A DNA stretch of 64,000 nt from a bacterium. Its GTDB lineage: Bacteria > Orphanbacterota > Orphanbacteria > Orphanbacterales > Orphanbacteraceae. Numbering within the stretch: the first letter of the stretch is position 1; each line of letters opens with the position of its first letter. This document shows positions 1,018 through 51,846 of this stretch, piece after piece. Made by a program: the position numbers and the translations under genes. The stretch is taken from the NCBI GenBank assembly GCA_025782575.1, contig JALGYY010000004.1, forward strand, positions 167,769 to 231,768. The letters are read 5' to 3'. A model generated the notes under the pieces. The model made no database searches and was not told the DNA's origin. It saw only the letters and a list, made by a program, of their open reading frames with translations.

Positions 1018-1299
1018 CGGGACCCCCCTCAATAACCCCCTCAAACTCAATCGATTAGAGCGGTGCTGCGCACACTGCTCCAAGATTTTTCAGTATAGGA
1101 CAGCGTCCGGATTGGGGCAAGGGAAAAGAACCCCGGAGAGGGGCGTGTAAGCTGTTGGTTTTCGGTCGGTTAGGGGGGTGGGTTTTCCGGGGTTTCGGGG
1201 GGTGCGATCCGGGGTGGGCAGGCCGTGCGAAAGGCCCGATCCTCTGGACATTTCGCACGCCGGTTTGATAGCCTTTTCTTGATGCATAATCCTCCCGGA

Positions 1300-2058
1300 A
1301 TGGTCTCTCTACTACTCGTCTGGTCGGTTGCGCTCACCGCTGCGGGTGCGCCCGCTTCCGATACACCCGATTTCCAGGCAAGGCTCTCCGACGCACTCGA
1401 GACTGTCGAAACGCTGATCGAGGATTCTGACCGGGAGTCCGCGCTCGACCTCCTTTCCCCTCTTCTTCGGGAAGCTCGTGCCGCAGATGACAGGAGAGCC
1501 GAGAGCAGAATTCTCATAACGAGAGGGCGTCTGCAGATCGGTCGAGGCAGACCGCTTGAAGCAGAGCCTGATCTTGTTTCGGCAGTCGCACTCTCAGAGG
1601 CTCTCTCTGATTCGACTCTCCTCTGCGAGGGGCTCTACCAGCTTGGTTATGCCCACCGTCGCCTTGGCCGTTTTGAGAAATCGAGAAACGCGTTCGAACG
1701 CCTGATCCGCGTGGCGACTGCCTCCCGCGACTCAACTCATATTGCTCGCGGACTGCTGGGAACGACTTCGCCCCTGATCAACGCCGGCTCGCTCGACACG
1801 GCGCTTGTCCGTCTCGAAACGGCACTGGAGCTTTTCCAGCGCTTCCGCCTGGAGAAGGACGAGCTGAACGCCACCCACCTGCTCGGTCTTGTGAACGCCA
1901 ACCGGGGAGAGAACGAAAAGGCAAAAAAATGGTGGGAGCAAACGCTCTCCAGATCGAGAGAGCTTGGCTCGCCCATGATGGAAGCGGGAAGCCTGTCGAA
2001 TCTGGCGACGCTGGAAGCTCTTACCGGGATTCCTTCTCATGCAGCCGAATACTTATGA
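1300..2058 (+). CDS. TPR-CHAT protein, N-terminal fragment (signal peptide plus TPR repeats)
   Basis: This is the N-terminal part of a TPR-CHAT protein. The hydrophobic start (MVSLLLVWSVALTAAGAPA) looks like a signal peptide and is followed by helical TPR-like repeats, for example LLCEGLYQLGYAHRRLGRFEKSRNAF-type units. The frame ends at TGA 2056-2058 after AAEYL. The same protein plainly continues one frame over, where ERAYALYLGD follows directly, so one extra base near 2053-2056 splits the gene. An upstream ATG at 1282 is an alternative start; neither has a strong ribosome-binding site. The downstream half carries the protease-like domain. Confidence 0.75.
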   Translation: MVSLLLVWSVALTAAGAPASDTPDFQARLSDALETVETLIEDSDRESALDLLSPLLREARAADDRRAESRILITRGRLQIGRGRPLEAEPDLVSAVALSEALSDSTLLCEGLYQLGYAHRRLGRFEKSRNAFERLIRVATASRDSTHIARGLLGTTSPLINAGSLDTALVRLETALELFQRFRLEKDELNATHLLGLVNANRGENEKAKKWWEQTLSRSRELGSPMMEAGSLSNLATLEALTGIPSHAAEYL

Positions 2059-4078
2059 GCGGGCATACGCACTCTATCTGGGTGACCAACGCTTTCGCGC
2101 CTCTCTGATCCCCGCGCGAAATGCCGCGATCCTTCGAATCCGGATGGGGCAGTTCGCCGCGGCGCAGTCGATGTTCGAAGACCTCCTTGACCTCTGCCGG
2201 GCCAACGGGTATCTCGATCACGAAGCGAATTTTCTGGTCTCCCTCGGATCGCTTGCCTACAAGCGGGGCCGATTGCAGGAGAGCGCCGGAAACTACCGCG
2301 CCGCCCTGGCGATTCTGGAAGATACGCGCGCAACTGTTCCACGGAACGAGGCAACCGTCGGTCTCGCACAGGTTTTAAGTGCTGTCGACAGCGTCGCGGA
2401 AGCACTCTCCCTGCTGAAAGATCAGGTGTCCGGCGGAATTGCCGGCCTCCCTCCAAATCAGCGCTTTGCTACAAACATAGAACTCGGGAGAACGCTCCTG
2501 CTCAGCGGGCGGCCTGCCGATGCGATCCGATTGCTCGAACCGATCCCCAGAGAGGCGGAAGAGCTCGGTTTCCGCTCCTTCGAGCTCTCGGCAAAAATCG
2601 AGCTGTCCGATGCACACGAGGCGATCGGGGAATCCGGGCGCAGCCTTTCCATCCTGCGGGAGGCGGCCACTCTCTGGGAAGAAGAGCGACAAGTCCCGGT
2701 TGACATGGAGTGGCGGGAGCAGAGGGGCGAGATCGGTTCCGATATCTCGACGCGGATCGCCTCCGTCATGCTCGGTAACACGAGCGCCCCGATAGAGAAC
2801 CGGCGAATCTCCGATGCGTTCGACGCGTTGCAGCGTTTCAAAGCCCGCACACTATTGGAGAGAATCTCGCGCCCCGGCACTCCCATTCCGGTCCTCGCCG
2901 ACCGATCCGTTACGGTGGTAGAGCTGCAGTCAGGCCTATTGAAACAGGGGGAGCTTCTTCTCGATATCTACTGCGGGGAAGATCGCTCTTTTCTGTTCGC
3001 TGTTACGCCGGATTCGCTCCGCGTCACCATTCTCCCGGGGAGGTCTGTTCTGGAGCGGCGCATCGATCTCCTCCACGAACTCCTGCGGAGCGCGGGGGGA
3101 GCGGCCAGTCGAGAGGCGGGCAAAGGGGCGACCGAGAGCATGGCCACCTGGCTCTTTGCCGGTGTCTCGGACCTGCTCGCATCGTCAACACATCTTCTCC
3201 TCATTCCCGACGGCCCGCTCAATCGGATTCCACTCTCAGTCCTGCCCGTCGCAGACAGTGCGGGAGATCGGAAACCGCTGATTTACTCCAAAACCGTCAT
3301 GCGGTATCCCTCGGCGACTCTTCTCGCCAGGCTCCGCGACAAGAGCGCTCTGCCGCCAAACGATTCGATTTCGATTCTGGCCGTTGCCGGAAGCCGGGGA
3401 GCCAGCGGCGAGGAGCTCCCCGGAGCCCTTCGAGAAGCCGCCGCCCTGGAGAAGCGCTTTCGACATGTCACCCTACTCGCAAAAGTCAAAGCGCGATCGG
3501 GCCTTCGAATCTTTTCGGGGTTCGACGTCCTCCATTTTGCGGCGCACACAACCATCGACGACCAGAACCCGTGGCTCTCCGCAATTCAGACCGGCCCCTC
3601 GGGGGGCCGTGCCATTCGGGCGGCTGAGATTGCGGGGCTTGATCTCGACGCCCGCCTGGTCGTGCTCTCCGGGTGTGAATCGGCGAGCGGTCGAATTCTG
3701 AACGGAGAAGGGGTACTCGGCCTCAGCACCTCCTTTCTGGGTGCCGGAGTCCCTGCGGTGGTAGCGACGCTCTGGCCGGTAGACGACCGGGCGACCGCCG
3801 ACCTGATGCTTCTCTTCTACGAGAACCTGGCGGACGGAGACGCTTTGGGGGTAGCATTGCGGGAGGCACAGGTCGAAATCGCGGGACATCCGGCAACGGA
3901 ACATCCTTTCTTCTGGGCGGGAATTATCGTGCTCGGAGACGCCTCGATTCGCCTGCCGATCGAGAGAATCGAGCCCGACCACGGGTGGGCCTTTATCCTT
4001 TTTACCCTTCTCGCGCTCCTGGTCATTCTCTGGCTCTGGAAATCGAGAAAGAATCAAAGCGAGGTCCGGCGTTTGTGA
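2039..4078 (+). CDS. TPR-CHAT protease, C-terminal part with caspase-like domain and membrane anchor
   Basis: This is the larger part of the split gene that begins at 1300. It continues the TPR repeats (about residues 1-300 here) and ends in a CHAT (caspase HetF-associated with TPR) domain. The catalytic-type His sits in LHFAAHT (about residue 503) and the Cys in VLSGCES (about residue 546), so the dyad is intact. The block GAGVPAVVATLWPVDD and the terminal HPFFWAGIIVLGD are typical of CHAT proteins. A hydrophobic segment (about 650-670) followed by basic residues suggests a C-terminal membrane anchor. The stop overlaps the GTG start of the sigma factor. The ATG at 2039 could allow re-initiation, but continuity of homology makes a frameshift more likely. 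Confidence 0.85.
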   Translation: MQPNTYERAYALYLGDQRFRASLIPARNAAILRIRMGQFAAAQSMFEDLLDLCRANGYLDHEANFLVSLGSLAYKRGRLQESAGNYRAALAILEDTRATVPRNEATVGLAQVLSAVDSVAEALSLLKDQVSGGIAGLPPNQRFATNIELGRTLLLSGRPADAIRLLEPIPREAEELGFRSFELSAKIELSDAHEAIGESGRSLSILREAATLWEEERQVPVDMEWREQRGEIGSDISTRIASVMLGNTSAPIENRRISDAFDALQRFKARTLLERISRPGTPIPVLADRSVTVVELQSGLLKQGELLLDIYCGEDRSFLFAVTPDSLRVTILPGRSVLERRIDLLHELLRSAGGAASREAGKGATESMATWLFAGVSDLLASSTHLLLIPDGPLNRIPLSVLPVADSAGDRKPLIYSKTVMRYPSATLLARLRDKSALPPNDSISILAVAGSRGASGEELPGALREAAALEKRFRHVTLLAKVKARSGLRIFSGFDVLHFAAHTTIDDQNPWLSAIQTGPSGGRAIRAAEIAGLDLDARLVVLSGCESASGRILNGEGVLGLSTSFLGAGVPAVVATLWPVDDRATADLMLLFYENLADGDALGVALREAQVEIAGHPATEHPFFWAGIIVLGDASIRLPIERIEPDHGWAFILFTLLALLVILWLWKSRKNQSEVRRL

Positions 4079-4701
4079 TTCCCCCGGGATCTGATCGTCT
4101 AACGAAACAAGAGGGTGGTCAGGAGACACCGTCCGACGAAGAGCTCCTGGCAATAATGGCCCGTCCGGACTCGAAGGACGCCGGGGCGGCGGGGGAAGAG
4201 CTATTCGGGCGATACTCGAAACGCGTTTATCTCTGGTGTCTTCGCTATGTCAAGGATCACGATGCCGCGCTCGATCTCGCACAGGATTCGCTCATGAGTG
4301 CCTTTCGATCAATCGAGTCGTTCCAGGGCCGGTCACGATTCTCTTCGTGGCTCTTTGCGATCACCAGAAACCGATGTCTCTCGTCGCTCCGGCCTGTCTC
4401 TCTTTTGCGTGACGACGATCGCGATCCCGATTCGGTGGCATCGCCCGACGACCCTCCCCTCCAGCAGCTTACCGACTCGGAAAGCGAAGCTTCATTGCTG
4501 AAGCTCATTCGCACCACCCTGGAGCCGATCGAGCAGAAAGTCATCTGGTTCCGGTGTTTCGAAAAGATGCCCGTCGACCAGATCACGGGCATGCTCGCGA
4601 TCGAGGGGGCGTCGGGAGCGCGGGGAATCATCCAGAGAGCAAGGCGAAAACTTCGTGCCGCCCTCAAGAAGAGACCGGCGAGCGAGGAGAACGAACAATG
4701 A
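4075..4701 (+). CDS. ECF-type RNA polymerase sigma factor
   Basis: This is a group-4 sigma factor of 208 residues, expected to redirect RNA polymerase in response to an envelope or stress signal. Region 2 is visible as ELFGRYSKRVYLWCLRYVKD, then DLAQDSLMSAFRSIESFQGR and SRFSSWLFAITRNRCL. Region 4 follows as LEPIEQKVIWFRCFEKMPVDQI with a basic end. I chose GTG at 4075 because it overlaps the CHAT gene stop as GTGA and has an upstream GCGAGG. The frame is open further upstream to 3985, but that stretch lies inside the CHAT coding region. The stop overlaps the next start as ATGA, so all three genes should be co-translated. Confidence 0.88.
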   Translation: MIPPGSDRLTKQEGGQETPSDEELLAIMARPDSKDAGAAGEELFGRYSKRVYLWCLRYVKDHDAALDLAQDSLMSAFRSIESFQGRSRFSSWLFAITRNRCLSSLRPVSLLRDDDRDPDSVASPDDPPLQQLTDSESEASLLKLIRTTLEPIEQKVIWFRCFEKMPVDQITGMLAIEGASGARGIIQRARRKLRAALKKRPASEENEQ

Positions 4702-5378
4702 GCAGACGAGTGTGTGTTCTGGCTGCAGAGATCGGCGACATTCCGAATCTCCCGGACAACGACCCCAAAAGCGTTCACGTGCGAGAGTGTCCTCGTTGCC
4801 GCGCCCTCCTCGACTCCTACCTGGCGTTTATGAGCGGGGGAAACGAAGCGGACGCGGATCGCTTGGTTGAAGCGGAAAACGTTCTTCGCGACAGGATCGC
4901 CGCGGAGATCGCGCGAACCGGCGACGTCGGCGGCTCGCCGGTTCCTAAAAAGAGACGCCCTGAAACGCGAGGACTGAGAGGCGTCCGGCGCGCGTTGCTT
5001 GCCACGGCAGCCCTGCTTCTCGTCGCCGTTTTCCTATACAACATCAACGAAGGAGACGAACGGGAGATTCGCCTTCGCGGAGAACCGAAAACGTCCGAGC
5101 AGGAGTGGGGCTGGGGCGACAACCGTGTCGGGGCGGATGGTTCTCTTCTGCTATCCTGGGAGCCTCTGGCCTCCGCCGATGAGTACGCAATCGACCTCTA
5201 CGACACGGACCTCGAACTGCTCCGTCGTTTCGGGCCCTACAAGAAGACCTCCGCAACAATTTCAAATGACGACATCGTCGCGCTCGGTTCGCCCCGGATT
5301 ATCTTGCTTCGTGTCGTCGCCCGGCGCCGGGGTGATGATGTCAGCGTTTCTCCGACGTGGTCGGTCGCCCTTCCCTGA
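4698..5378 (+). CDS. Putative transmembrane anti-sigma factor with HxxxCxxC zinc-finger-like motif
   Basis: The product has 226 residues. Near the N-terminus HVRECPRCRALLDSY matches the H-x3-C-x2-C core of zinc-binding anti-sigma (ZAS) domains. A single transmembrane helix (ALLATAALLLVAVFLYNI, about residues 98-115) separates it from an outer domain of about 110 residues that contains SWEPLASADEYAIDLYD, reminiscent of fibronectin-like folds. The ATGA overlap with the sigma gene supports a sigma/anti-sigma pair. With the upstream CHAT protease, the operon suggests signal-dependent proteolysis that frees sigma. That role is inference from gene order and domain content. Confidence 0.72.
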   Translation: MSRRVCVLAAEIGDIPNLPDNDPKSVHVRECPRCRALLDSYLAFMSGGNEADADRLVEAENVLRDRIAAEIARTGDVGGSPVPKKRRPETRGLRGVRRALLATAALLLVAVFLYNINEGDEREIRLRGEPKTSEQEWGWGDNRVGADGSLLLSWEPLASADEYAIDLYDTDLELLRRFGPYKKTSATISNDDIVALGSPRIILLRVVARRRGDDVSVSPTWSVALP

Positions 5379-5720
5379 CTTTTTCGCCGCCGTCCGCAGA
5401 CGTATGCGTTTTATCCGTCTACTTTCCTCCGACAACCTGTCTAGGGCCGTTGAGGGGGCCCGTATCTCTCTACTTATTTTGATCTTTCAATAAATATTGC
5501 TTGACAGGTTTTCAGGCGCAGAATCTCGGTGAGCCGCGCTCCCTTGTACGCCGGCCGCAAGACGGGCTCTCCTCGTCTCGGATCGATTCAATCAACTCTT
5601 CCTGCCGAATCTCTCAAGTTCATTGCCGGTCCTTGGTGTAGCCCCTCTCCCGAAGCCGAAAAAGGGCATGCTAAAATATCAGCGGGGCTTGGAACGATAA
5701 GGGTGGATCGGGAGGGGAAG
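5379..5720 (+). other. Intergenic gap between the anti-sigma gene and the HNH gene
   Basis: About 340 bases hold no convincing gene. There is an AT-rich stretch near 5473-5505 containing a TTGACA at 5502-5507 without a good -10 at normal spacing. A TAAAAT-like hexamer near 5671 lies about 45 bases before the HNH start. The reading frame of the HNH gene is open back to 5529, but that extension has no ribosome-binding site and unremarkable composition. Confidence 0.4.
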
Positions 5721-6890
5721 ATGGCGATGACGACGACGAAAAAGATGGACTCGGTTCTGGCGACGTATTCCAATCATGAGATCATTCGAAAAGGGGATCG
5801 GGCGGTTCAGAGCCGACATGAACTCTCCATCGAGATTCTCGACTGTCTGGTCGAGATCGAGGGGCGATCGATATTTCTAAAGGAAGGGTACTCCTCGCTT
5901 TTCGATTACTGCACGCGGAGATGGCACTACTCACCCCCTAAAGCGGGGCGGTTCATAGCGGCTGCCCGATGTATGAAGAGCTTTCCAGGTGTGCGGGATT
6001 TGCTTTTGCGGCGCAAGATTACACTCTGTGGCGTCTCCATGATCGCCGGAATCCTAACGGATGAGAACTCCGACAAGATCCTTCAGGAAGTTTCGGGAAA
6101 GAGATTCGTGGAGATCGAAAAGATCGTCGCCTCGCTGAAGATCGCTCCGAAGATCCGGGAGTCGATACGGCCGATCGGACTGCAGGAACCGGCGGGCGGG
6201 CGGGATCGAAGCGCCGATCACGAGGATCTCTTTCAGCCGAATCGAACACTTGGGAACTATCAAATTGATAGTGATTTTGTGGATGAACAGACGGATCAGC
6301 TGGGGGGCGACTCTCCAATCGATAACCATAAAATGAAACTCGAACAGCGCTACGAAATTCGGTTCTCGGCGAGCGAAGAATTCTGCCGGGACCTGGAGCG
6401 GGCGAAGATGGTCTGCTCCCGTAGTTGGAATCTGGAAGCGATTCTGGGGAGAGCGATCAAGGACCTGCTGGAGAAGCGGGACCCCGAGCAGAAAGAGGCA
6501 CGGCTGAAGAAGAGAGAAGCGAGGAAGCAGAGCAAGTCGGAGGGCCAGGCGCAGAGATTTGCGAAAAGCGGTTCCCCGGCCATACCGGCAACCGTGAGCG
6601 GCTCAGAAATGGCCGATGAGAAAGAGCCTCCAGGCAAGGGAGCAGAGGGGCTGCCCGTTCGTTCCCGACATATCCCGGCCCACTTGCGGGACGCGGTGTT
6701 CAACCGTGACAAAGGGCGCTGCACCTACACCAGTTCCCTCGACATCCAATGCGACTCGACCGCTCACCTGCAGATCGATCACATCACACCGTTCTGCCGG
6801 GGCGGGGGGCACTCCCTCGAGAATCTGCATCTCTTGTGCGGCAAGCACAACCGGTTGGCAGCGCGCGAAATGTCACTGACGAAGCGTTGA
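5721..6890 (+). CDS. HNH endonuclease family protein (DUF222-like N-terminus)
   Basis: The product has 389 residues. The C-terminal region from about residue 310 reads RHIPAHLRDAVFNRDKGRC, then QIDHITPFCRGGGHSLENLHLLCGKHN. It carries the His, Asn and His positions of an HNH nuclease and Cys residues for a structural metal. The N-terminal 150 residues are helical, as in the DUF222/HNH proteins that often occur in many copies in soil and sediment bacteria. The middle is charged and low in complexity. ATG at 5721 has a strong GGGAGGGG upstream. The biological target is unknown; mobile, phage-derived or toxin-like roles are all possible. It stands alone and is followed by a terminator-like hairpin. 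Confidence 0.8.
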   Translation: MAMTTTKKMDSVLATYSNHEIIRKGDRAVQSRHELSIEILDCLVEIEGRSIFLKEGYSSLFDYCTRRWHYSPPKAGRFIAAARCMKSFPGVRDLLLRRKITLCGVSMIAGILTDENSDKILQEVSGKRFVEIEKIVASLKIAPKIRESIRPIGLQEPAGGRDRSADHEDLFQPNRTLGNYQIDSDFVDEQTDQLGGDSPIDNHKMKLEQRYEIRFSASEEFCRDLERAKMVCSRSWNLEAILGRAIKDLLEKRDPEQKEARLKKREARKQSKSEGQAQRFAKSGSPAIPATVSGSEMADEKEPPGKGAEGLPVRSRHIPAHLRDAVFNRDKGRCTYTSSLDIQCDSTAHLQIDHITPFCRGGGHSLENLHLLCGKHNRLAAREMSLTKR

Positions 6891-6934
6891 GAAACGAATG
6901 ATCAAGGCGCGGATCAGGAAAACGCATACGTCAC

Positions 6935-6954
6935 CGGACAAGTCCGATTTTTTT
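6935..6954 (+). terminator. Rho-independent terminator-like hairpin after the HNH gene
   Basis: The sequence CGGACAAGTCCG can form a short GC stem with a small loop. It is directly followed by A and seven T residues, 45 bases after the HNH stop. The stem is short (4-5 bp), so termination strength is uncertain. Confidence 0.5.
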
Positions 6955-7152
6955 CGCCGACCTTGTGATTCTCCGCCCTTCTTCGTGTCTCACCTGTAGA
7001 CGGCTAGGGCCGTTGCCGCTTGGGCGTCGCCGGGGTGGGCTTCGCCGGGGGTGTGCGGGCGGCCATCGTGCACGGCGTGACCGTTGCGTCGGCACTCGAC
7101 GTGAGCCCCACCCTGAGCGGCGCCCTTACTACAATCTAAAGGAGCTCAGACC

Positions 7153-7818
7153 ATGTCATTACGCATTAACGACGAAGCGCCTGATTTCACGGCCGAAACA
7201 ACTCAAGGGAAGATCCGGTTTCACAAGTGGATCGGCGACGGGTGGGCCGTGCTGTTTTCTCACCCGAAAGACTATACCCCGGTCTGCACGACCGAGCTCG
7301 GCTACATGGCCGGTATTGCGGGTGAATTCGCCAAACGAAACTGCAAGATCGTCGGCCTCAGCGTTGACCCCGTGGAAAGCCACAAAGGGTGGGCCAAAGA
7401 TATCGAAGAGACACAAGGACACGCGTTGAACTATCCGTTGATCGCCGACACGGACCTGGCCGTATCCAAGCGATACAACATGCTGCCTGCGGAAGAAGAG
7501 GGGTCCTCGGAGGGCCGGACCGCTGCGACGAACGCGACCGTTCGGTCGGTCTTTGTCGTCGGGCCGGACAAAAAAATCAAGATGATGTTGACCTATCCCA
7601 TGAGTTCGGGCCGTAACTTCAATGAGATCCTTCGGGTACTCGACTCCATGCAGATGACAGCCGCACACCAGGTGGCCACACCGGTTAACTGGGTGCCTGG
7701 CGAGGACGTCATCATCCTGCCATCGGTTAGTGACGAGGAAGCCGGCAAGATGTTTCCGCGCGGCGGGGAGACGGTAAAACCCTACCTGCGCGTTGTTCCG
7801 CAGCCGAATTCAAAATAG
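7153..7818 (+). CDS. 1-Cys peroxiredoxin (Prx6 family)
   Basis: This thiol peroxidase reduces hydrogen peroxide and organic or lipid hydroperoxides in the cytoplasm. It has 221 residues, the usual Prx6 length. The peroxidatic Cys45 lies in the family motif PVCTTELG after FSHPKDYTP. The C-terminal half contains the dimerisation region with TPVNWVPGEDVIILPSVSDE. A strong AAAGGAG sits 8 bases before the ATG. It appears monocistronic: a terminator-like hairpin lies upstream, and the next gene starts 51 bases downstream with its own GAGAGGAGAGG. Confidence 0.93.
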   Translation: MSLRINDEAPDFTAETTQGKIRFHKWIGDGWAVLFSHPKDYTPVCTTELGYMAGIAGEFAKRNCKIVGLSVDPVESHKGWAKDIEETQGHALNYPLIADTDLAVSKRYNMLPAEEEGSSEGRTAATNATVRSVFVVGPDKKIKMMLTYPMSSGRNFNEILRVLDSMQMTAAHQVATPVNWVPGEDVIILPSVSDEEAGKMFPRGGETVKPYLRVVPQPNSK

Positions 7819-7869
7819 CGGCGCATCGCTCTGATTCCGGGAAGACACACAAACCGAGAGGAGAGGCCC

Positions 7870-8493
7870 ATGCCTAATTACACACGTCGACTCGCTGCGA
7901 TGTCACTCGCCTCCATGCTCGCCTTCCTGGGCTGGTGCGTGCCCGCAGAGGCAGTTCGCTACAACACGTCAACCCCACCGGCACGGTCGAATTTAGCGTG
8001 GTCCGGGGTATTCGCGTCTACCCCGCAGGGGGGAATCATTCCCCACGGTTCCGTGGTGAGTGCGATGGACGACCTCGGGCAGATCTACGTCGCCGGCACA
8101 TTTGACCTTCCCGGCGTCGGTCCGATTCGGGTTGCCTGGTGGGACGGAAGCCACTGGGAGATTATCGGAAACCGTGTCGTCAAAAGTGGCGCCATCGAGT
8201 CCCACGTGTCAGCGATCGCTGTGGACGGTGCGGGCAATATCTATGTTGGTGGATTGTTCACCGACGCCTACCACGATGACGGTTCGTTCGTCTCCTCCCG
8301 GAATATCGTCAGGTGGAATGCGGTCGCACTGCAATGGGAGTCAATCGGAGAGGGGACCGACGGGTGGGTGAGAGATATCGCCGCGCTTCCGAATGGCGAC
8401 CTTTATGTGGCCGGCGATTTCTCTGTCGTTTTTAACCCGGGGGGCGGTGCGGTCTCAGCTCCCCACATCGCCAGGTGGGATTCGGGATTATAG
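7870..8493 (+). CDS. Rax2-like secreted beta-propeller protein, N-terminal fragment before an in-frame amber stop
   Basis: A signal peptide (cleavage expected after PAEA, about residue 27) is followed by repeats of the type VDGAGNIYVGGLF...RWNA..LQWESIGEGTDG, typical of Rax2-like / Kelch-like propellers. Translation stops at TAG 8491-8493 inside one repeat. The frame resumes immediately and identically in phase as QWEPVGGGTDG, so this and the next entry are one gene of about 1219 codons interrupted by one nonsense codon. A single base change such as CAG to TAG would explain it; real decay and sequence error are both possible. Confidence 0.8.
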   Translation: MPNYTRRLAAMSLASMLAFLGWCVPAEAVRYNTSTPPARSNLAWSGVFASTPQGGIIPHGSVVSAMDDLGQIYVAGTFDLPGVGPIRVAWWDGSHWEIIGNRVVKSGAIESHVSAIAVDGAGNIYVGGLFTDAYHDDGSFVSSRNIVRWNAVALQWESIGEGTDGWVRDIAALPNGDLYVAGDFSVVFNPGGGAVSAPHIARWDSGL

Positions 8494-42896: not shown

Positions 42897-43988
42897 ATGC
42901 ATCGCTTCAAGAATATCCTTGTTGTTGCCGAGGAAGGTGAACACGGCCGGGCGACGCTCGCCCGGGCTGTAAGACTGGCCAGGAGGAACGAGGCCAGGCT
43001 CACCGTCGTTGACCCACTGAGACGGACGACGGCGGAGAGAGCGCTTCCCCGTAACCTTCAGAATGCCATTGTGAGCGAGCGCCGATCCCTCTTGAAGCAG
43101 CTTACCGAGCCGTTTCGGGAGCAAGACGTTCAGATCCACGAAAAACTGCTGTACGGAACTCCGTTCATAGAAGTCATCCGGGAGGTGTTACGGAGTAGTC
43201 ACGACCTGGTGATCATCGCGGCTAAGAGCGCGGTCGGCCTCCGGGCGCGCGTGTTTGGCAGCTTTTCTCTTCACCTGATGCGCAAATGCCCATGCCCGGT
43301 CTGGGTGTTGGGACCCGCCCCGCGTTACCCGACCGGCCAGATCCTGGCCGCCGTTGACCCCAGCCCGACAGATGCCGAAAACGACTCGGTTAACGCGCAG
43401 ATCATTGAGCTGGCAACCTCCATAGCCAGGCTGACGAAAGGTCATCTCCACATCGTGCATGCATGGGAGCTTTGGGGGGAAGATCTTATGAGGCGGCGAA
43501 CAAGGAACCTGGGCGCGGCAGACTGGGCAGTCCACGAGGAACGCATTGCCGCCCAAACGCGGCTCAACGAGTTTCTCGGACACTACATCCTTGACGATGT
43601 GCATTACCACGTCCACCTCGTTAAGGGGAAGGCAAGCCGCGTCATCGCTTCCCTGGTCGCCAAACACGCGATCGACCTTGTTGTGGTAGGCACGGTGTGC
43701 AGAACGGGGATCGCAGGTATGTTGATCGGCAGCACGGCGGAAAACATGCTCGGACAGATGGATTGCTCGGTCCTCGCCCTGAAGCCCCGGGGATTCGTCT
43801 CTCCTGTGGAAGTCACAAATCCCCGGGGGGCGACATCTATCGAACCAGCGTCATGCGGTGGACATTCCGGTAATTTCCCGCATCAAACCGATAGAGATAG
43901 ATACCCGAGCCGACCGGTGTCCCGCGATCGTCCTGTCCGTCCCACAGGATCGAATGGAACCCCGGGGCTCGGGATTCATTGTCGATGA
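42897..43988 (+). CDS. Tandem universal stress protein (UspE-like) with antisense-encoded tail
   Basis: The protein has two UspA domains (about 1-145 and 148-300). The second ends with the ATP-binding loop VVGTVCRTGIAGMLIGSTAENMLGQMDCSVLALKP. UspE-like proteins support stress survival. The last ~55 residues after LALKPRGFVSPVEV are encoded antisense to the 3' end of the convergent FG-GAP gene and look unlike Usp, so the native stop seems to be lost. It lies 83 bases after the baeRF-like gene, with GGGAGGA upstream. Confidence 0.88.
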   Translation: MHRFKNILVVAEEGEHGRATLARAVRLARRNEARLTVVDPLRRTTAERALPRNLQNAIVSERRSLLKQLTEPFREQDVQIHEKLLYGTPFIEVIREVLRSSHDLVIIAAKSAVGLRARVFGSFSLHLMRKCPCPVWVLGPAPRYPTGQILAAVDPSPTDAENDSVNAQIIELATSIARLTKGHLHIVHAWELWGEDLMRRRTRNLGAADWAVHEERIAAQTRLNEFLGHYILDDVHYHVHLVKGKASRVIASLVAKHAIDLVVVGTVCRTGIAGMLIGSTAENMLGQMDCSVLALKPRGFVSPVEVTNPRGATSIEPASCGGHSGNFPHQTDRDRYPSRPVSRDRPVRPTGSNGTPGLGIHCR

Positions 43989-46848
43989 GACGCCGGACGA
44001 GCCGACCGTTCACGTTGTAGATCATGAGCTTCACCGGCATGGCGTCGGAGAGTTCATAGCGGATTACAGTGCTCGGGTTGAATGGATTCGGCGCATTCGG
44101 GAGCGATCGAACGACACCCGGCACTGCACTTCCGCCGGCAACGTCTGTTGCTGAGGGCTCAACCAGAGTGATCCGCTGGTTCGGCGCGGTGCCCAACAGA
44201 CGCTGCACGATCCCGCTCGGCCAGAGCACTTCGATTGTGTCGATTAACACCGAAGGAAGTTCGAAGAGCGCACCGAATCCGAACTCTGCCGTCAGCGAAT
44301 TCATCGAACAGAAGCCCGAACCGGACGTCACTTCGCGAATTCGTGCGACGCCGTTTTCAATGACTCGGATCCGCGCTCCCACACCGAACGAGTTGGACGT
44401 CGTCCCCTGAAGATCGATCTGGAGCCAGTGGTTGCCGCCACCGAGTTCGTTTCGATAGAGCCGGTTCGGTTGCCAGAATGAGTTCACAGTGAAGAGGTCG
44501 AGATCGCCGTCGTCATCGACGTCCGCCCACGCCGCGCCACCCGTTGCACCCGGATCGTCGTACGGCCACTGGGCGACATCCACGAACGAGGAGCCGTCGT
44601 TACGAAACAGGCGGTTCGGTCCGTTGAAGTTGGATAGATAGAGATCGAGGTCGCCGTCATTGTCATGGTCCGCCCATGCGGGAGTGTGCGAATCGAGCCC
44701 GTCAAGAAGTGGCGCCGGAGTGGAGTTCGAAAATGTGCCCCCACCCGTGTTCTCGAAGAGAGCATTGTTGCCGGCGTTGTTGGCGAGATAGAGATCGAGG
44801 TCGCCGTCTCCGTCATAATCCGCCCAGCTCGCTCCCCGTGCCTGGCCCGCATCGGCAAGGACCCCCGGCGTGACATCCGCGAATGTACCGTTCCCCATAT
44901 TCCGGAGCAGGCGGTTCGCCGTGCCGGAGTTGGCGAGATAGAGATCCGGATTACGATCGTTGTCGTAGTCTCCCCAGACGGCGGCGTACGTGTCGCCTCC
45001 GTCCGCAAGAGCTCCCGTCGCGATGTCGACGAACGTTCCGCTGTTGTTTTGCAGCAATCGGTTCGCTCCGCCGGTTACAGCGATATACAGGTCGAGATCT
45101 CCGTCCCGATCGTAGTCGGCCCACGAACCGGACAGCCCCACACCGGCATCGCCGAGAGCACCTGAAGTGGCGTTCGTGAACGCGCCGGTGCCAGAGTTGT
45201 CGAAGTAGACGTTCGGTCCATCGTTCACCAGATAGAGATCGAGATCAGAATCGCCGTCCACGTCTCCCAGGGTAACGCCGAACCCGAAGCCGAAGTCGTC
45301 AGTCGGCGGGCCGGTAATATCCGAAAGGATTCCGTTGTCATTACGGAAGAGCTTGTTCGGTCCGGCCCAGTTGGAAAGATAGAGATCGTGGTCGCCGTCA
45401 CCATCGATGTCACCCCACGCCACGCCATGACTGACGTCGAACCCTTTGATTTCCGGCGTCGACACATCGGCAAGCAGCGACTGAGGAGCGAAAATCGTGC
45501 CGTAGATATCGCGCCAGTTTCCCGCGCCGGAGTTCCGGTTGTCATCCCACGCGACGAGCGCCGAACCGTTCGATCCACAGGCGATCACAGGGTGAAGCGG
45601 ATCTTCGTTTCCCGGCGCGATTCCGGTCGTCTGGGAGAGTATGCTGTTCGGATAGGGTGGGTACTGATAGTTATAGTCCACATAGTTTCCGCGAATATGA
45701 TAGTAGCCATCCCCACCCAGGTTGCAGGGGTCGACCGAACCCGTTTCGCGCCAGACGACGAACCAGCTGTCGTTACGTTCGTCGAAGTCGAGGCGGGGGA
45801 GCCAGGGATCGGTGATCGGAAAGCTCCAGTGCTTGCAAATCCTACTCACCGGGAAGGCGCCGGTCAGTCCACTACAATACATCAACTCGTTCGCATCTAC
45901 CGGACAACCCCATATCCCTGTCCAGCTTGTTCCGGAATTCTGCGGGTCGGTGTTGTTATGGTCCTCCCACACAACCAGAAAGGTTTCATCGCTTCCCGAC
46001 TCACCGTATGAAACGTCCGGCCGATAGACGGAGCCCGACTGTGTACCCCAGTCGACAGGCACAGTCGCTTCGAACGGAACCCCCACTCCGCAGTTCCAGA
46101 GAGTGGCGATCGGGTTAGCGTCGGAGCCGAGCATGATTGCCCATCCGGAGCCTCCCAAGTCAAAAGCAAACAGGTAACGCCCTGTGGGTGTTTCGACGCT
46201 CGAAACGGGGGCATAGGCAAGGCCGGGTCGGCTGAGCTGGGTGAACGGGCCGTTCGTCACATTGATAGTCGAGCCGATCCCGAATCCGGCGCTGCTGACA
46301 CGCTGCGCGTAGATGTCGCGGAGCCCGCTCGACGAGCCGGTGTCCATCGCCGCCATGACGAGATACTCGTCCGCAATCGAGTTGTACTCAACCACCGGAC
46401 CGCCCGGACCGTTCCCCCTGTCATAGGGTTCACCCGCTATGGCGGATATGGTGTTCAGCCACCCTCCGTCAGCATCGATCAGAACCGCATCGATTCCCTG
46501 CGTTCCGATTGCGCCGCCGTTCACGGCAACGAGCAGGTACTCATCCTGAGTCGGGTTGTGAACAATACTCGGATCGCCATGCTGGAAACCGAGAGGGAGG
46601 ACAACTGGCGGAGCGATCGCGTTTCCCCAGCGATCAAGCCTGACGCCTTCGTAGAACGCAATTCCGATCGGTGCCGCCACCTGCCTGTAGACGGCAAAAT
46701 ACTCCTGCCGGGATTCGTTCCAGACGGCGCAGCGAGCCGTTTCTGTCGTGTCGGTGGTTGCTGTGATCGCAAAATCAGCGAGGAGCGCCGCCGGGATTGC
46801 AAGAAACCCGATAAGAACGAGAATAGTGATAATCGTACGCTTGTACAT
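43837..46848 (-). CDS. Secreted FG-GAP/VCBS repeat protein with ASPIC/UnbV domain and FlgD-Ig-like tail
   Basis: The 1003-residue product begins with a signal peptide (MYKRTIITILVLIGFLAIPA). The N-terminal half is a repeat-rich region with motifs such as NESRQEYFAVYRQ and DPSIVHNPTQDEYLLV. Seven FG-GAP/VCBS calcium-loop repeats follow (DIDGDGDHDLYLSNW-type), then an ASPIC/UnbV domain (NHWLQIDLQGT to TIEVLWPSGIVQRL) and a C-terminal tag (YNVNGRLVRRLID, SGIYLYRF, RMTLVR). It is probably surface-exposed and adhesive; its partner is unknown. ATG 46848 has GGAGG 8 bases upstream. It sits 127 bases after the CHAT gene and may share its transcript. Confidence 0.85.
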   Translation of the reverse strand: MYKRTIITILVLIGFLAIPAALLADFAITATTDTTETARCAVWNESRQEYFAVYRQVAAPIGIAFYEGVRLDRWGNAIAPPVVLPLGFQHGDPSIVHNPTQDEYLLVAVNGGAIGTQGIDAVLIDADGGWLNTISAIAGEPYDRGNGPGGPVVEYNSIADEYLVMAAMDTGSSSGLRDIYAQRVSSAGFGIGSTINVTNGPFTQLSRPGLAYAPVSSVETPTGRYLFAFDLGGSGWAIMLGSDANPIATLWNCGVGVPFEATVPVDWGTQSGSVYRPDVSYGESGSDETFLVVWEDHNNTDPQNSGTSWTGIWGCPVDANELMYCSGLTGAFPVSRICKHWSFPITDPWLPRLDFDERNDSWFVVWRETGSVDPCNLGGDGYYHIRGNYVDYNYQYPPYPNSILSQTTGIAPGNEDPLHPVIACGSNGSALVAWDDNRNSGAGNWRDIYGTIFAPQSLLADVSTPEIKGFDVSHGVAWGDIDGDGDHDLYLSNWAGPNKLFRNDNGILSDITGPPTDDFGFGFGVTLGDVDGDSDLDLYLVNDGPNVYFDNSGTGAFTNATSGALGDAGVGLSGSWADYDRDGDLDLYIAVTGGANRLLQNNSGTFVDIATGALADGGDTYAAVWGDYDNDRNPDLYLANSGTANRLLRNMGNGTFADVTPGVLADAGQARGASWADYDGDGDLDLYLANNAGNNALFENTGGGTFSNSTPAPLLDGLDSHTPAWADHDNDGDLDLYLSNFNGPNRLFRNDGSSFVDVAQWPYDDPGATGGAAWADVDDDGDLDLFTVNSFWQPNRLYRNELGGGNHWLQIDLQGTTSNSFGVGARIRVIENGVARIREVTSGSGFCSMNSLTAEFGFGALFELPSVLIDTIEVLWPSGIVQRLLGTAPNQRITLVEPSATDVAGGSAVPGVVRSLPNAPNPFNPSTVIRYELSDAMPVKLMIYNVNGRLVRRLIDNESRAPGFHSILWDGQDDRGTPVGSGIYLYRFDAGNYRNVHRMTLVR

Positions 46849-46975
46849 AGTCCGATCCTCCAAGAGAAACGCGCATTCTGGTCTTCTATCAGCCAAAACA
46901 CGAAAAAGGGAGGAACCGAACAGAAAGAAGCGGGAATGGATAAAGTGTGCAGCCAGTGAAGGCTGCGGGCGGCCG

Positions 46976-49900
46976 TCAGCGGCGGTCTCCGGTGGCGACG
47001 AAACCGGCCCAGTAGCCGGGGTGGGTTGAAAGTCCGAGAGCGCGGCGGCGTTCCAGGAGGGCGAGGCTTGCGCGGCGGACGGATTCGACCGTACTCCGGC
47101 CGGCAAGACGGTTCTCGTAAAGGGATCGCATCCATTCGAGAGTGATCTCGTCGTCCACAGGCCAGAGGCTCAGGATAAGCGTTCGAACCCCCGCCATTTC
47201 GAATGCTCTTCGTAGCCCGAAGACTCCCTCGCCCGCCCGAATCTGACCAAGGCCGGTTCCGCAGGCGGAGAGAACCGCCCACTCCACGCCGGTAAGATCG
47301 AGGGCAGCGATTTCTTCGGCCGTCAGAATGCCGTCCTCCTGATCGGGCCCGGCAGTATCTCGGCGATTGGCGCCGGCCAGGGCGAGGCCGCAGAGAAGGA
47401 GCGGGTTTTCGGTTACGGGAGAATCGTCCCGGGCGCCGACAGCCCCCCCGATTCCCCGACGGTTTTCTGCTACCGCGGCACACTCCCCTCCCAGGAAGAA
47501 CGCATGGGTTGCCACGTGGATGATTCGGCTTCCCGGCGCATGAGTTTTGAACGATGATTCGGTCGCTTCCGGCCCGTTTCGCAGCGTGTAATTGCCGCCC
47601 GTCCCCGTGTGGTGAGCACTGCCCCACATTTTCGACACAAGCTGCGACTCCCTCACCGCGCCGGGTAAGGGCTCGAATCGGATCGCGTCGAACCCGCCGC
47701 ACTCCGCCCGTTTGCCGCGAAACGGCGCCGCACTCGCGACCAGCAATTCCTCGGTAGGCAGGCCGCGTTCTCTCTGCCCGGCCGCGCTCTCGTAATCGGG
47801 ACCGCCGAGTGCGAAGAGGCCCCACGGTTGCCCACTTGCCGGGGGCACGGAGCTCGGTCGACAGAGGTCACGTTCCGCAGAAAGGAGATGAATTGACAGC
47901 CCCTCGTCGATCAGAAAGTGTTCGGGCAATGAACCGGGCAAAGCGTGGAAATCGACCAGGTGGATCGATCCGTCGGGGACGACTAAAATGGTCTCGTTAC
48001 CGGCGATCGACTCGGCCAGAGGATCCCAGATCATTCGGCGGAGTTCCCTTCCTGGCGTGAAAAGATCGATTTCGCCGCTTTCGACCGGCGCCCCTCCCCC
48101 CACGATCCCGTTTCTCCAGGCGCTCACCAGACTGTCGATGAGCGTGGCCGGACCGAGTGGGATCGCCACAGGGGCGTCGGTCGCTGTTACCACGAATGCT
48201 GTGTAGGCCGGCGGGGGAACGTCATGCAGCCACCCCGCGGCGACTCTTTCGTTAAGGTCGAATGCCACGAGTGCGGCGCCATTCGGAATCGCACCGACCA
48301 CGTCGCCGTATCCACGGTCCATCGCGGCAATCTCTTCCCCGTCCCTCTCGCTGTGCATGGAAAGAGTTCGCTCTGCGCGCTCTTTCGTGGCGCGCGCTTC
48401 TTCCAGATGATTACGGTGCTCTTCCATCGTCTCGTCCCCGCGGCCGCGAACGACGAGGTCGGCGAGTACCTGGCGCGCCTCGGCGAGACCGGCTCTGAGC
48501 GAGTCGACCACGACTTCCCGGCTGCCGGGCATCCTGCCACGAAGGGATGCGATTTCGTCGATCACAAGTCCCCGGGATCGGATGACTTCGTCCCAGATAC
48601 TCTCAACCAGATCGGGGGGCGAGCTTTTGTTAAGAAGGGGGATGGCAATTCCGAGGCCGGCATCTCGATGGCTGTCATAGCGAAGGGCCTCCCGCTCCGC
48701 CAGGTTGGGGGCTGTCAATCGATGGTGTTCCCGGCTCACCCTTTCAGAAGCGAGGGCTGCTTCGATCGCTCTGCTTGTATCACCGGTCGAGGCGAGCGCC
48801 GAAGCCAGACCCAACAGTTCAGTTGTTATGTTCGGATGGTCCTCGCCAAGCGCATCGACATAGATGTCGTAGGCGTGCTGGTAGTGCTCGGCGGCCCCGG
48901 AGTAATTCGAGCGCTCAAATTCAAGATTTCCCAGGTCGTGAATGAAGCGAGCCGAATGAAGATGACCCGGCCCATAGACCCGGGAGTAATACTCAACGGC
49001 GAAAGAAATATGGGCTTCCGCCTCGTCGAACTCGCCAAGATAGGTAAGCGCCCTTCCCAGATTTCCCCGTACTGTGGGGATCTCCGGATCATCTTCTCCC
49101 CGTGCTTTGCGAAGCCGCACCAGAAGATCTTCATAGATGTCCCGCGCACCCCGAAGGTCATTGCAGTGCAACAAACCTCCGGCAAGATCGCGAAGACCTC
49201 TTAACAATTTCGGATGATCCGTCTCAAGGCTGTTTTGCCGAATCGCGACAATTCTCCTGTGGAGAGCGACTCCCCGCTCACACTCACCGATCAACTTGTG
49301 AACATTGGCGAGGCCGGCGAGAGAATAGGTGAGCTGCTCATGGTCCGGACCAAACACTCTTTCTATTATGCGGATAGATCGTTCGTAGAACTCCCGAGCA
49401 TCGCCGTAACGCCCCATGATCCGATAGAGGTGTCCCAGGCTGGTCGTCGGGTGGGCAACCATATCGTGTTCGGGGCCGTATACCTTTTCTCGAATGGCGA
49501 TCGTTCGCAGAAAGGCTTTCTCCGCCTCGCCGTAGTTACCCATGAGCCGCAGCAGAATCGCGTAGCTGTACAGTGTCGATGCAATGCTCTTGTCGTCCGG
49601 ATCAAGAGAGCTATCCTGAATGGAGATCGCCCTTTCAAAGAGTCGCTGGGATTCCTGAAAGTTCTCATCCAGCCTGTGCAGTCGCGCCAGATAACCGAGG
49701 CTGCGGGCGAGGTCGGAGGCGTAAGAATCGTTTGCCGTCTCGAGGATTTTGATCGCGCGGCGAATGTCTGCTTTCGCACCTTCGTTATCCCCGACAGCCG
49801 TCCGTATGACGCCGAGCCTGTGATAAGCAGGCGCCACTTCCGGGTGATCCGCCCCATGAATCGCCACGCGAATAGCGACGCTTCGCTCGCCGAGCGAGAG

Positions 49901-50158
49901 GGCGTCGTTGCCGTGAACGTTTCCCGACTTCTGCATCACATCGAGAAGGACGTGAATCGCCTCGGCTGTCTCCGTTGACTGCTTGCCATATGTTTCTTCC
50001 GTGCTACCGAGATAGGCGCGCGCGAGTGATTCCGCATCTTCATAACGAGAGAGTTCCTTGAGCGCAATAATGGAATCGACCGTGGCCGCCTGATCGGCAA
50101 AGGGAGGTGTTGCGGCCACGAGAAGCACTGCGGCTGTTAAGATTGATGAACGAATCAT
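46976..50158 (-). CDS. TPR-CHAT caspase-like protein
   Basis: The 1060-residue exported protein has a signal peptide (MIRSSILTAAVLLVAATPPFA). About ten kinesin-light-chain-type TPRs follow (residues 30-470, for example YGEAEKAFLRTIAIREKVYGPEHDMV). The C-terminal CHAT domain (about 640-1055) has the catalytic pair His885 in HVATHAFF and Cys966 in LSACGTGLG. The fragment RTLILSLWPVDDEIT is a conserved CHAT block. The start overlaps the kinase stop by 4 bases, and the sigma gene lies upstream. Unlike the first copy there is no evident C-terminal anchor. A signal-responsive protease is the likely role. Confidence 0.9.
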   Translation of the reverse strand: MIRSSILTAAVLLVAATPPFADQAATVDSIIALKELSRYEDAESLARAYLGSTEETYGKQSTETAEAIHVLLDVMQKSGNVHGNDALSLGERSVAIRVAIHGADHPEVAPAYHRLGVIRTAVGDNEGAKADIRRAIKILETANDSYASDLARSLGYLARLHRLDENFQESQRLFERAISIQDSSLDPDDKSIASTLYSYAILLRLMGNYGEAEKAFLRTIAIREKVYGPEHDMVAHPTTSLGHLYRIMGRYGDAREFYERSIRIIERVFGPDHEQLTYSLAGLANVHKLIGECERGVALHRRIVAIRQNSLETDHPKLLRGLRDLAGGLLHCNDLRGARDIYEDLLVRLRKARGEDDPEIPTVRGNLGRALTYLGEFDEAEAHISFAVEYYSRVYGPGHLHSARFIHDLGNLEFERSNYSGAAEHYQHAYDIYVDALGEDHPNITTELLGLASALASTGDTSRAIEAALASERVSREHHRLTAPNLAEREALRYDSHRDAGLGIAIPLLNKSSPPDLVESIWDEVIRSRGLVIDEIASLRGRMPGSREVVVDSLRAGLAEARQVLADLVVRGRGDETMEEHRNHLEEARATKERAERTLSMHSERDGEEIAAMDRGYGDVVGAIPNGAALVAFDLNERVAAGWLHDVPPPAYTAFVVTATDAPVAIPLGPATLIDSLVSAWRNGIVGGGAPVESGEIDLFTPGRELRRMIWDPLAESIAGNETILVVPDGSIHLVDFHALPGSLPEHFLIDEGLSIHLLSAERDLCRPSSVPPASGQPWGLFALGGPDYESAAGQRERGLPTEELLVASAAPFRGKRAECGGFDAIRFEPLPGAVRESQLVSKMWGSAHHTGTGGNYTLRNGPEATESSFKTHAPGSRIIHVATHAFFLGGECAAVAENRRGIGGAVGARDDSPVTENPLLLCGLALAGANRRDTAGPDQEDGILTAEEIAALDLTGVEWAVLSACGTGLGQIRAGEGVFGLRRAFEMAGVRTLILSLWPVDDEITLEWMRSLYENRLAGRSTVESVRRASLALLERRRALGLSTHPGYWAGFVATGDRR

Positions 50159-51846
50159 TGTGGATTCTCGAGGACGATTTCACGCATCCAGACACCGCGG
50201 ACTTCCTCCGACCGAAGCTCCAGCCTGCCAGCGATGTCACCGACACTCCCGGGTGCAGGCGAGTTGGATCCTGTGCTTTGGAATGCGGGAACCGCCCCGC
50301 CGATTCCGCGCAGCCGCCGGAAAGATTCGCCTGAAATGGGGGCGGATCGTACGGGCCGTCCGAGTTCTGCCCGGGGGAGCCCCGCAATGGCCCGCTCGAT
50401 TTCCTCTACCGGGGATGGGCAGGCCACAACGAAAAAGTGCTCCCGCCCTCCGGCGCTCGTCACTTGCCAATGGATTTCTTCACCGTCACGATTTCCGGGC
50501 AGCTGATGCGACTGATCGCCGGGAAGGGGGTTCTTCAGCTCGTATCCGGGCAACGGGAACAGCACGAACGATGCGCCGTTCTCGTCTTCGGAGAGGACAT
50601 ATGTGTAGAGATCGGAAGACGCCTGGATCTTAAGAAAGAGCTCGTCCCCTGGTGAGACGGCCGAACCCGAACGGAGCCGTTCCGCACCTGAGGGACCTTC
50701 CCGATAGAGAGAGGCCTCGACGGAATAAGCGGGCGAGCCCGAGCGGAGGAAAAAGACTCCCGCTGCGATCGCTATTCCGGCGATGGCGCACGCGAACCAG
50801 AGCCGCGGTCCGCCTCCCGGCCGAGGAGATGCGATCGCCGGCGAGCCGGAACTCTCCGCACTCTCTCTGTCGAGAAAATCGGCGAGCGCTTTTTCCATTT
50901 CGCCGGCAGTCGCGAACCGTTCGCCCGGCTTGTTTGCAGTGGCCCGTTCGACTACGCGCAGAAAGCTTTCCGGCAGTCCGGGCCTCGCGTCCCGAAGCGA
51001 AGTGGATCGGCCTGATTCGTGGGCGTTTTGTATTTCGCCGGCCGACCGTCCGGTTACCGGAAATGCTCCCGATGCGAGCAGGTATAGGAGAATGCCGGCA
51101 CCGTACAGATCGCTCTGGACGGTCGCCTCTTCCCCCGCAAGGATTTCAGGCGCCATGTAGAGGGGCGTGCCGCTTACAGTCCGTCCGCCCCCGGCCGCCT
51201 GTTTCTCGCGGCCCAGGCCGAAGTCCATGAGAACAATCCGCCCCCCTTTTTCGCGCATCACGTTTCGGGCCTTTACATCCCGATGGACGAGACCTGATGC
51301 GTGCACGGCCGCAAGCGCGCGACAGACATCGATCCCCGTGAGCGCCGCCTCTCCTGCTCCGAGCGGGCCATCTGATTTCACGATACTGTCGAGGGTCCGG
51401 CCCCGAATGAGCTCCATCCAGATTCCGGCGCGACCGGCGTGAACATCAGCCCCATGAACAGTTACTACATTGGGATGGTCGACCTTTGCCAGCGCACGCG
51501 CTTCCCCGATCGTTCCATCATCTTCGGTTGTCTCGCCGGCGATCAGTTTGAGCGCCACCTCGCGGTCGAGCCGGGGATCGCGGGCTCTGTAAATCTCCCC
51601 GTAGCTACCGGAGGCGAGCGCTTCCAGAATTTCGAGAGCTCCCCACTTGTCGCCCGCGGAAAGAGGCTCTATTTCAGAGATGAGGTCCTCGTGGAATCCG
51701 GTAATCTTCGAGAGCAGGCGAAAACCATGAACGACCTGCCGGCTCTCCTCGTCGGGAGCGCCCGTCTCCTCGGCGTCCCAGTCGACACTCTTACCGTCCG
51801 CCACGGAGCGGGCGAGTTTCAGAGTCCAATCCCCATCACGCCTCAT
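50155..51846 (-). CDS. Membrane Ser/Thr protein kinase with DUF4384-like outer domain
   Basis: The 563-residue Hanks-type kinase has the glycine loop ASGSYGEIYRA, Lys100 in VALKLI, catalytic H188RD (HRDVKARNV) and D208FG, all intact. A TM (about 350-367) links it to an outer domain of about 190 residues (PGDELFLKIQASSDLYTYVLSEDENG, SFVLFPLPGYE) that resembles DUF4384, a putative ligand or protein sensor. The start overlaps the sigma gene by 11 bases and the stop overlaps the CHAT gene by 4 bases. It probably relays an envelope signal within this module; phosphorylation of sigma or the CHAT protein is inference. Confidence 0.9.
   Translation of the reverse strand: MRRDGDWTLKLARSVADGKSVDWDAEETGAPDEESRQVVHGFRLLSKITGFHEDLISEIEPLSAGDKWGALEILEALASGSYGEIYRARDPRLDREVALKLIAGETTEDDGTIGEARALAKVDHPNVVTVHGADVHAGRAGIWMELIRGRTLDSIVKSDGPLGAGEAALTGIDVCRALAAVHASGLVHRDVKARNVMREKGGRIVLMDFGLGREKQAAGGGRTVSGTPLYMAPEILAGEEATVQSDLYGAGILLYLLASGAFPVTGRSAGEIQNAHESGRSTSLRDARPGLPESFLRVVERATANKPGERFATAGEMEKALADFLDRESAESSGSPAIASPRPGGGPRLWFACAIAGIAIAAGVFFLRSGSPAYSVEASLYREGPSGAERLRSGSAVSPGDELFLKIQASSDLYTYVLSEDENGASFVLFPLPGYELKNPLPGDQSHQLPGNRDGEEIHWQVTSAGGREHFFVVACPSPVEEIERAIAGLPRAELGRPVRSAPISGESFRRLRGIGGAVPAFQSTGSNSPAPGSVGDIAGRLELRSEEVRGVWMREIVLENPQ

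Follow-up and report, generated by a model that had tools for sequence, protein, structure and literature searches.

The window analysed here is a stretch of 64,000 nucleotides, and near its start three co-directional genes on the + strand encode a TPR-CHAT protein, an ECF sigma factor and a transmembrane anti-sigma factor (Table 1). The adjoining dnaN gene (25-1020) is divergent. The three genes named in the first-pass annotation are all present, with CHAT and sigma identified by profile matches and the anti-sigma by its zinc motif and a weak NCBIfam match. The GTGA and ATGA overlaps described there are real as well. The CHAT stop overlaps the sigma start at 4075-4078 and the sigma stop overlaps the anti-sigma start at 4698-4701; the sequences GAGG and AGGAG precede these overlaps. 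A conserved -35/-10 before the operon, which had been proposed as a check, was not found, and GGAAC and bipartite motifs of ECF promoters did not exceed shuffled controls across 30 upstream regions. An HNH endonuclease protein of 13E12-like layout (5529-6890) is encoded directly after the operon and was absent from the loci examined in relatives.

Table 1. Features of the operon, of further CHAT operons in the source genome and of a second anti-sigma family.
Feature	Location	Strand	Description
TPR-CHAT, N-terminal half	1225..2058	+	Signal peptide MVSLLLVWSVALTAAGAPAS, TPR repeats (TPR_12 3e-13), TGA stop 2056-2058
1-nt frameshift site splitting the TPR-CHAT gene	2050..2058	+	TAC TTA TGA to TAC T TAT GAG, at ~2055
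TPR-CHAT, C-terminal half	2039..4078	+	Remaining TPR, CHAT domain (Pfam, 2e-56), C-terminal TM (residues 649-667), basic tail
Predicted catalytic His, H503 of CHAT ORF	3545..3547	+	Invariant in 28/28 orthologs
Predicted catalytic Cys, C546 of CHAT ORF	3674..3676	+	Invariant in 28/28 orthologs
ECF sigma factor, 208 aa	4075..4701	+	GTG start inside the CHAT-stop overlap
Transmembrane anti-sigma, 226 aa	4698..5378	+	ATG start inside the sigma-stop overlap
Anti-sigma zinc motif C6, H27, C31, C34, predicted cytoplasmic	4713..4799	+	From sequence and alignment
Anti-sigma single TM helix, residues 99-117	4992..5048	+	Basic segment before the helix (N-in)
Anti-sigma L126-R127-G128, linker between TM and FN3	5073..5081	+	Putative CHAT cleavage or docking site; R127 at 5076-5078
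Anti-sigma FN3-like beta-sandwich, residues 130-226, predicted periplasmic	5085..5375	+	Model match to FN3 domains
L015, second CHAT operon in the window	43837-52420	-	Sigma at 51836-52420
L015 Ser/Thr kinase with DUF4384	50155-51846	-	
L015 TPR-CHAT	46976-50158	-	
L015 large FG-GAP/ASPIC protein	43837-47106	-	FlgD-like tail
L012			Sigma / small protein / TPR-CHAT
L016			Sigma / anti-sigma-like / TPR-CHAT; kept in a relative as L042
Second anti-sigma family	L109, L111, L117, L118, L121, L123, L124, L216, L218-L221		Beside a different CHAT clade

The TPR-CHAT gene had been read as one uninterrupted frame over 1225-4078, a reading that missed a frameshift of one nucleotide. The TPR ORF ends at 2056-2058 and the CHAT ORF runs in another frame from 2039. 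When joined, the two halves match relatives exactly one nucleotide off register (HAAEY followed by YERAY) with nothing lost, and they thus represent one frameshifted gene rather than two genes. The frameshift is either a sequencing or assembly error or a recent mutation. Most orthologs, by which we mean the homologs nearest to the window CHAT, from a sister phylum, have a single open frame of ~900-1000 aa, and a few are cut by contig ends or bear stops. A programmed frameshift at TTA TGA is unsupported, as the orthologs are not split at this place and keep a single frame. Translation of TPR-CHAT probably does not begin at GTG 1225 but at ATG 1282 or ATG 1300, ahead of the signal peptide.

The CHAT half matches PF12770 with 192 bits against a cut-off of 24. 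The His/Cys pair reported earlier is present as H503 and C546 and conserved throughout the orthologs, catalysis itself being predicted. A structure model of the CHAT half (pLDDT 86) matches separase best (Z 27.7, rmsd 3.3 over 310), followed by Csx29, the TPR-CHAT protein of Craspase (Z 26.8). Further matches include DdvA (Z 20.1 over 507 residues, rmsd 8.7) and gingipains (Z ~19). The TPR ORF carries a signal peptide and the CHAT ORF closes with a TM helix and a basic tail, as in most orthologs. This combination places TPR-CHAT, by prediction, in the periplasm outside the inner membrane, where the topology of both this protein and the anti-sigma is derived from hydropathy and charge only.

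Both sigma regions noted earlier are recovered. Sigma70_r2 matches at 8e-16 and TIGR02937 (residues 40-197, 8e-19) covers both regions, with no match of its own for the Pfam region 4 in the window sigma. The presence of sigma-70 regions 2 and 4 without region 3 identifies an ECF sigma factor. In the anti-sigma, the H-x3-C-x2-C motif recognized earlier reads HVRECPRC. Together with a fourth ligand (C6-H27-C31-C34), its N-terminal position and the neighboring ECF sigma gene, the motif defines a zinc-type transmembrane anti-sigma. The NCBIfam anti-sigma match is weak (8e-6, below the cut-off), and no Pfam family matched, zf-HC2 included. The protein is predicted to consist of the cytoplasmic zinc motif, one TM helix and a periplasmic FN3-like domain. 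In the structure model, the ectodomain matches FN3 domains over ~90 residues with Z values reaching 9.5, and a low-confidence linker (residues 120-126) is directly followed by R127, ahead of the FN3 domain.

The neighborhood of CHAT, sigma and anti-sigma genes, for which a lack of synteny in relatives had been named as grounds for rejection, is kept in the orthologs through several gene orders. An ECF sigma gene lies at most 1.1 kb from CHAT in 32 of the 47 ortholog loci. Among the other loci, two have the end of an anti-sigma gene beside CHAT at a contig edge, two have a sigma gene at a distance of 3.1-3.3 kb, one represents a fusion and several are truncated at contig ends. The genes occur as CHAT-sigma-anti-sigma, as sigma-anti-sigma-CHAT, and in divergent (L086) and convergent (L058) arrangements. 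Such variable order makes the mere inheritance of a single block unlikely. The ortholog records with names belong mostly to Candidatus Krumholzibacteriota/Krumholzibacteriia and 'Eisenbacteria', with a few labels of Latescibacterota and one of Acidobacteriota. No close ortholog of the window CHAT was found in the other examined genomes of its own family. A tree built from 132 CHAT domains places the window copy in a clade of 50 rows (SH-aLRT 98) that is mostly sigma-linked. About one quarter of the more distant CHAT genes, from other phyla, have a sigma gene within about 1.1 kb, which indicates that a wider association between CHAT and sigma exists.

Co-occurrence across genomes, also raised in the first-pass annotation, points the same way. 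The ortholog CHAT and the anti-sigma family are found together in 29 genomes, singly in 3 and 5, and neither in 41 (Fisher 5e-13, a value that overstates the co-occurrence because genomes of one phylum are not independent). CHAT genes and sigma/anti-sigma pairs that are not linked also tend to share genomes, as seen in five cases. The source genome (4.88 Mb, 95% complete) carries 8 CHAT genes and 28 sigma-70 region-2 genes, so that any given gene would have a sigma gene at most 2 kb away by chance with p=0.023. Four of the 8 CHAT genes have such a neighbor (P about 2e-5), the other three loci being L012, L015 and L016 (Table 1). A physical partnership is further supported by a locus in which CHAT is naturally fused to the anti-sigma ectodomain in a single frame of 1093 aa (L128, from CP070763; locus positions 5176-8457). 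The order in this protein is TPR-CHAT, TM, a short basic loop, a second TM, GILRGD and an FN3-like domain, and the CHAT and LRG-FN3 parts are predicted to lie on the same side of the membrane. The fusion has no zinc domain and no sigma gene nearby. As LRG is kept there nonetheless, its role is not only in sigma release.

The most conserved part of the anti-sigma outside the zinc motif is a single arginine. In an alignment of 21 sequences, only C31, C34 and R127 are invariant. In a wider set of 67 anti-sigmas, R127 is found in 61/66 with 3.8 bits, close to the zinc cysteines (3.9 and 3.75), in a linker where most positions other than the L and G of the motif stay below 1.4 bits. The equivalent of R127 is kept in two loci where zinc ligands are lost, and three anti-sigmas with DUF4384-like ectodomains retain LVLRG after the TM. 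A second anti-sigma family beside a different CHAT clade (Table 1) combines H-x3-C-x2-C and a TM with an R-G that is invariant in 12/12. In an unaligned pattern test, phi-R-G occurred in 42/77 tails of CHAT-adjacent anti-sigmas versus 5.8 +/- 2.3 in shuffled tails, and in 0/9 of the CHAT-less sigma loci of the source genome. This test and the presence of LRG in two separate MAFFT alignments rule out an alignment artefact.

LRG is not strictly tied to CHAT adjacency. Nine sigma/anti-sigma pairs of the same families in the sister phylum carry it without an adjacent CHAT. These neighborhoods lie mostly in genomes with CHAT elsewhere, and two lie in genomes without a CHAT match, both fragmented assemblies. 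They do not form an independent control, as they were found through anti-sigma similarity. An invariant arginine in the outer juxtamembrane linker is a candidate cut site and supports the earlier prediction that CHAT cleaves the outer or linker segment. Several clan CD peptidases, including separase, paracaspase, clostripain and gingipain R, cleave after Arg (PMC4357240). Alternatively, LRG could be the point where the ectodomain begins structurally, or could serve for docking.

The nearest known system in its parts is DdvA/DdvS of Myxococcus xanthus (PDB 8rot/8rw5), which likewise joins an ECF sigma to a transmembrane anti-sigma with TPR and CHAT and is closer than Craspase. Among PDB sequences, DdvA matches the CHAT profile best (E 4e-8), and its CHAT domain retains His and Cys. 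Anti-sigma, TM and TPR-CHAT form one chain in DdvA, whereas the window encodes anti-sigma and TPR-CHAT as two proteins, of which the anti-sigma carries an FN3-like ectodomain of its own. The window operon is thus not of the DdvA single-chain type, and L128 is a fusion in the reverse order without the zinc domain. No DdvA-like single-chain proteins were found in one additional sampled phylum, possibly not Myxococcota. The activating signal of DdvA was reported as unknown in 2015 (PMC4374960). In actinobacteria, ECF54 sigma factors have CHAT-domain proteins in a conserved context and proteolytic control has been proposed (PMC8999054), although ECF54 lacks an anti-sigma.

Comparable trios of protease, anti-sigma and ECF sigma are known. 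In CalpL/CalpT/CalpS of type III CRISPR, cleavage is followed by a proposed secondary degradation (PMC11417357). CalpL is a protease of the Lon type that the second messenger cA4 activates, whereas the window protease is a CHAT protein. DegS, a serine PDZ protease whose gene lies elsewhere, likewise differs from the CHAT protease encoded in this operon. DegS/RseA/RpoE and RsiW/SigW share the logic of a membrane anti-sigma that is cut outside the membrane and then processed, freeing an ECF sigma (PMC10028731). The arrangement described here has its logic in common with Craspase, CalpL/T/S and RseA/DegS. The literature searched, with much subscription literature outside its scope, contained no description of this trio of CHAT, sigma and anti-sigma.

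We suggest that the operon serves envelope signalling, with CHAT as a dedicated site-1-like protease that would cut the anti-sigma at R127 and start the release of sigma, a reading to which we assign a probability of about one half. TPR-CHAT would be secreted through its signal peptide, with the C-terminal helix as its anchor in the inner membrane and the TPR and CHAT parts thus facing the periplasm. The zinc domain of the anti-sigma would hold the ECF sigma in the cytoplasm, while the chain crosses the membrane to the short linker and the FN3-like domain. An envelope signal might act on the TPR or the FN3 part. The CHAT cysteine protease would then cut the linker between R127 and G128 as the site-1 step, and intramembrane and cytoplasmic proteases would remove the remainder of the anti-sigma, leaving sigma free to act on its presumed regulon. 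More tentatively, at slightly less than even odds, the operon may represent a widespread and hitherto undescribed class of envelope signalling outside CRISPR. In this class, a periplasmic separase-like CHAT protein would be the dedicated site-1 protease of its own anti-sigma and would cut at one invariant arginine kept across unrelated ectodomains, so that a caspase/separase-type protease triggers transcriptional control across the membrane.

The first-pass annotation had likened the operon to Craspase (Csx29, Csx30 and CASP-sigma of type III-E CRISPR), where cleavage of the inhibitor relieves sigma (PMC10028731). The likeness holds for the TPR-CHAT fold and for the joint encoding of protease, sigma inhibitor and ECF sigma, and is limited by the predicted topology. 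Craspase is RNA-guided and has no membrane topology of the kind predicted here; its substrate is Csx30, and the partner in the window is a membrane zinc/FN3 anti-sigma. The Craspase cut sites (M-K, L-D and A-S) are non-Arg and not conserved across orthologs (PMC11106740). A Craspase-like, CRISPR-guided protease system with its CRISPR part lost or hidden would account for the shared fold class and trio logic. We consider it highly improbable given the predicted periplasmic location, the lack of cas1 in the source genome (95% complete) and the lack of a PADLOC match for the CHAT half, sigma or anti-sigma. Membership in Craspase, defined by TPR-CHAT with gRAMP/Cas7-11 and cas genes, is rejected, and no CRISPR genes were found among the ORFs scanned beside the operon.

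Linkage, co-occurrence and fusion would fit any physical or regulatory partnership. CHAT might bind the anti-sigma without cutting it, with the LRG linker and FN3 domain as docking site and a conformational modulation of the anti-sigma. Alternatively, sigma might merely control the production of a CHAT protein with another envelope substrate. LRG could then be an interaction motif, in line with the pairs lacking an adjacent CHAT. This explanation is unlikely in our view, since the invariant catalytic dyad argues for protease activity and a lone invariant Arg in a variable linker, shared by several ectodomains, is more suggestive of proteolysis than of docking. The best structural match being separase, a securin-like role of the anti-sigma is also conceivable, in which LRG and FN3 act as pseudosubstrate inhibitor of CHAT, sigma release is coupled to CHAT activation, and the proteins that CHAT truly targets are found elsewhere in the envelope. 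In gingipain R, an Arg of the prodomain occupies S1 and holds the enzyme (PMC4357240), and the joining of LRG-FN3 to CHAT without zinc domain or sigma in L128 is expected of an inhibitory or self-processing segment. Nothing points to other substrates and most copies retain a complete sigma/anti-sigma pair, which makes this role rather improbable. The window copy itself might be decaying, with a real frameshift, a CHAT that is not one protein and a lost protease input. The frameshift contrasts with mostly intact orthologs and none of these was found in other examined family genomes. However, the halves are otherwise open and complete, the operon retains the catalytic residues, the overlaps and intact sigma and anti-sigma genes, and the frameshift could equally well be an error of assembly or sequencing. 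Decay thus appears somewhat unlikely; it would concern this copy only and is compatible with the other readings.

If CHAT is indeed the site-1 protease of the anti-sigma, caspase/separase-like CHAT proteins, known in bacteria mainly from CRISPR settings, would gain a general role in envelope sensing. ECF sigma factors would gain a site-1 protease of a new kind, one that is dedicated and encoded in the same operon. An external event would change gene expression through a cut at an anti-sigma Arg just outside the membrane, and the invariance of this Arg makes the cleavage idea a one-residue test. The same arrangement may explain DdvA in Myxococcus.

An order of sigma, intervening gene and TPR-CHAT was observed at seven loci in Acidobacteriota, Gemmatimonadota and Bacteroidota, one of them in the named strain Membranihabitans marinus CZ-AZ5. 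The CHAT proteins of L016 and its ortholog L042 show no obvious signal peptide and are possibly a cytoplasmic version. Their partner protein carries a C-terminal carboxypeptidase-regulatory-like beta domain, and a sulfatase-like gene precedes.
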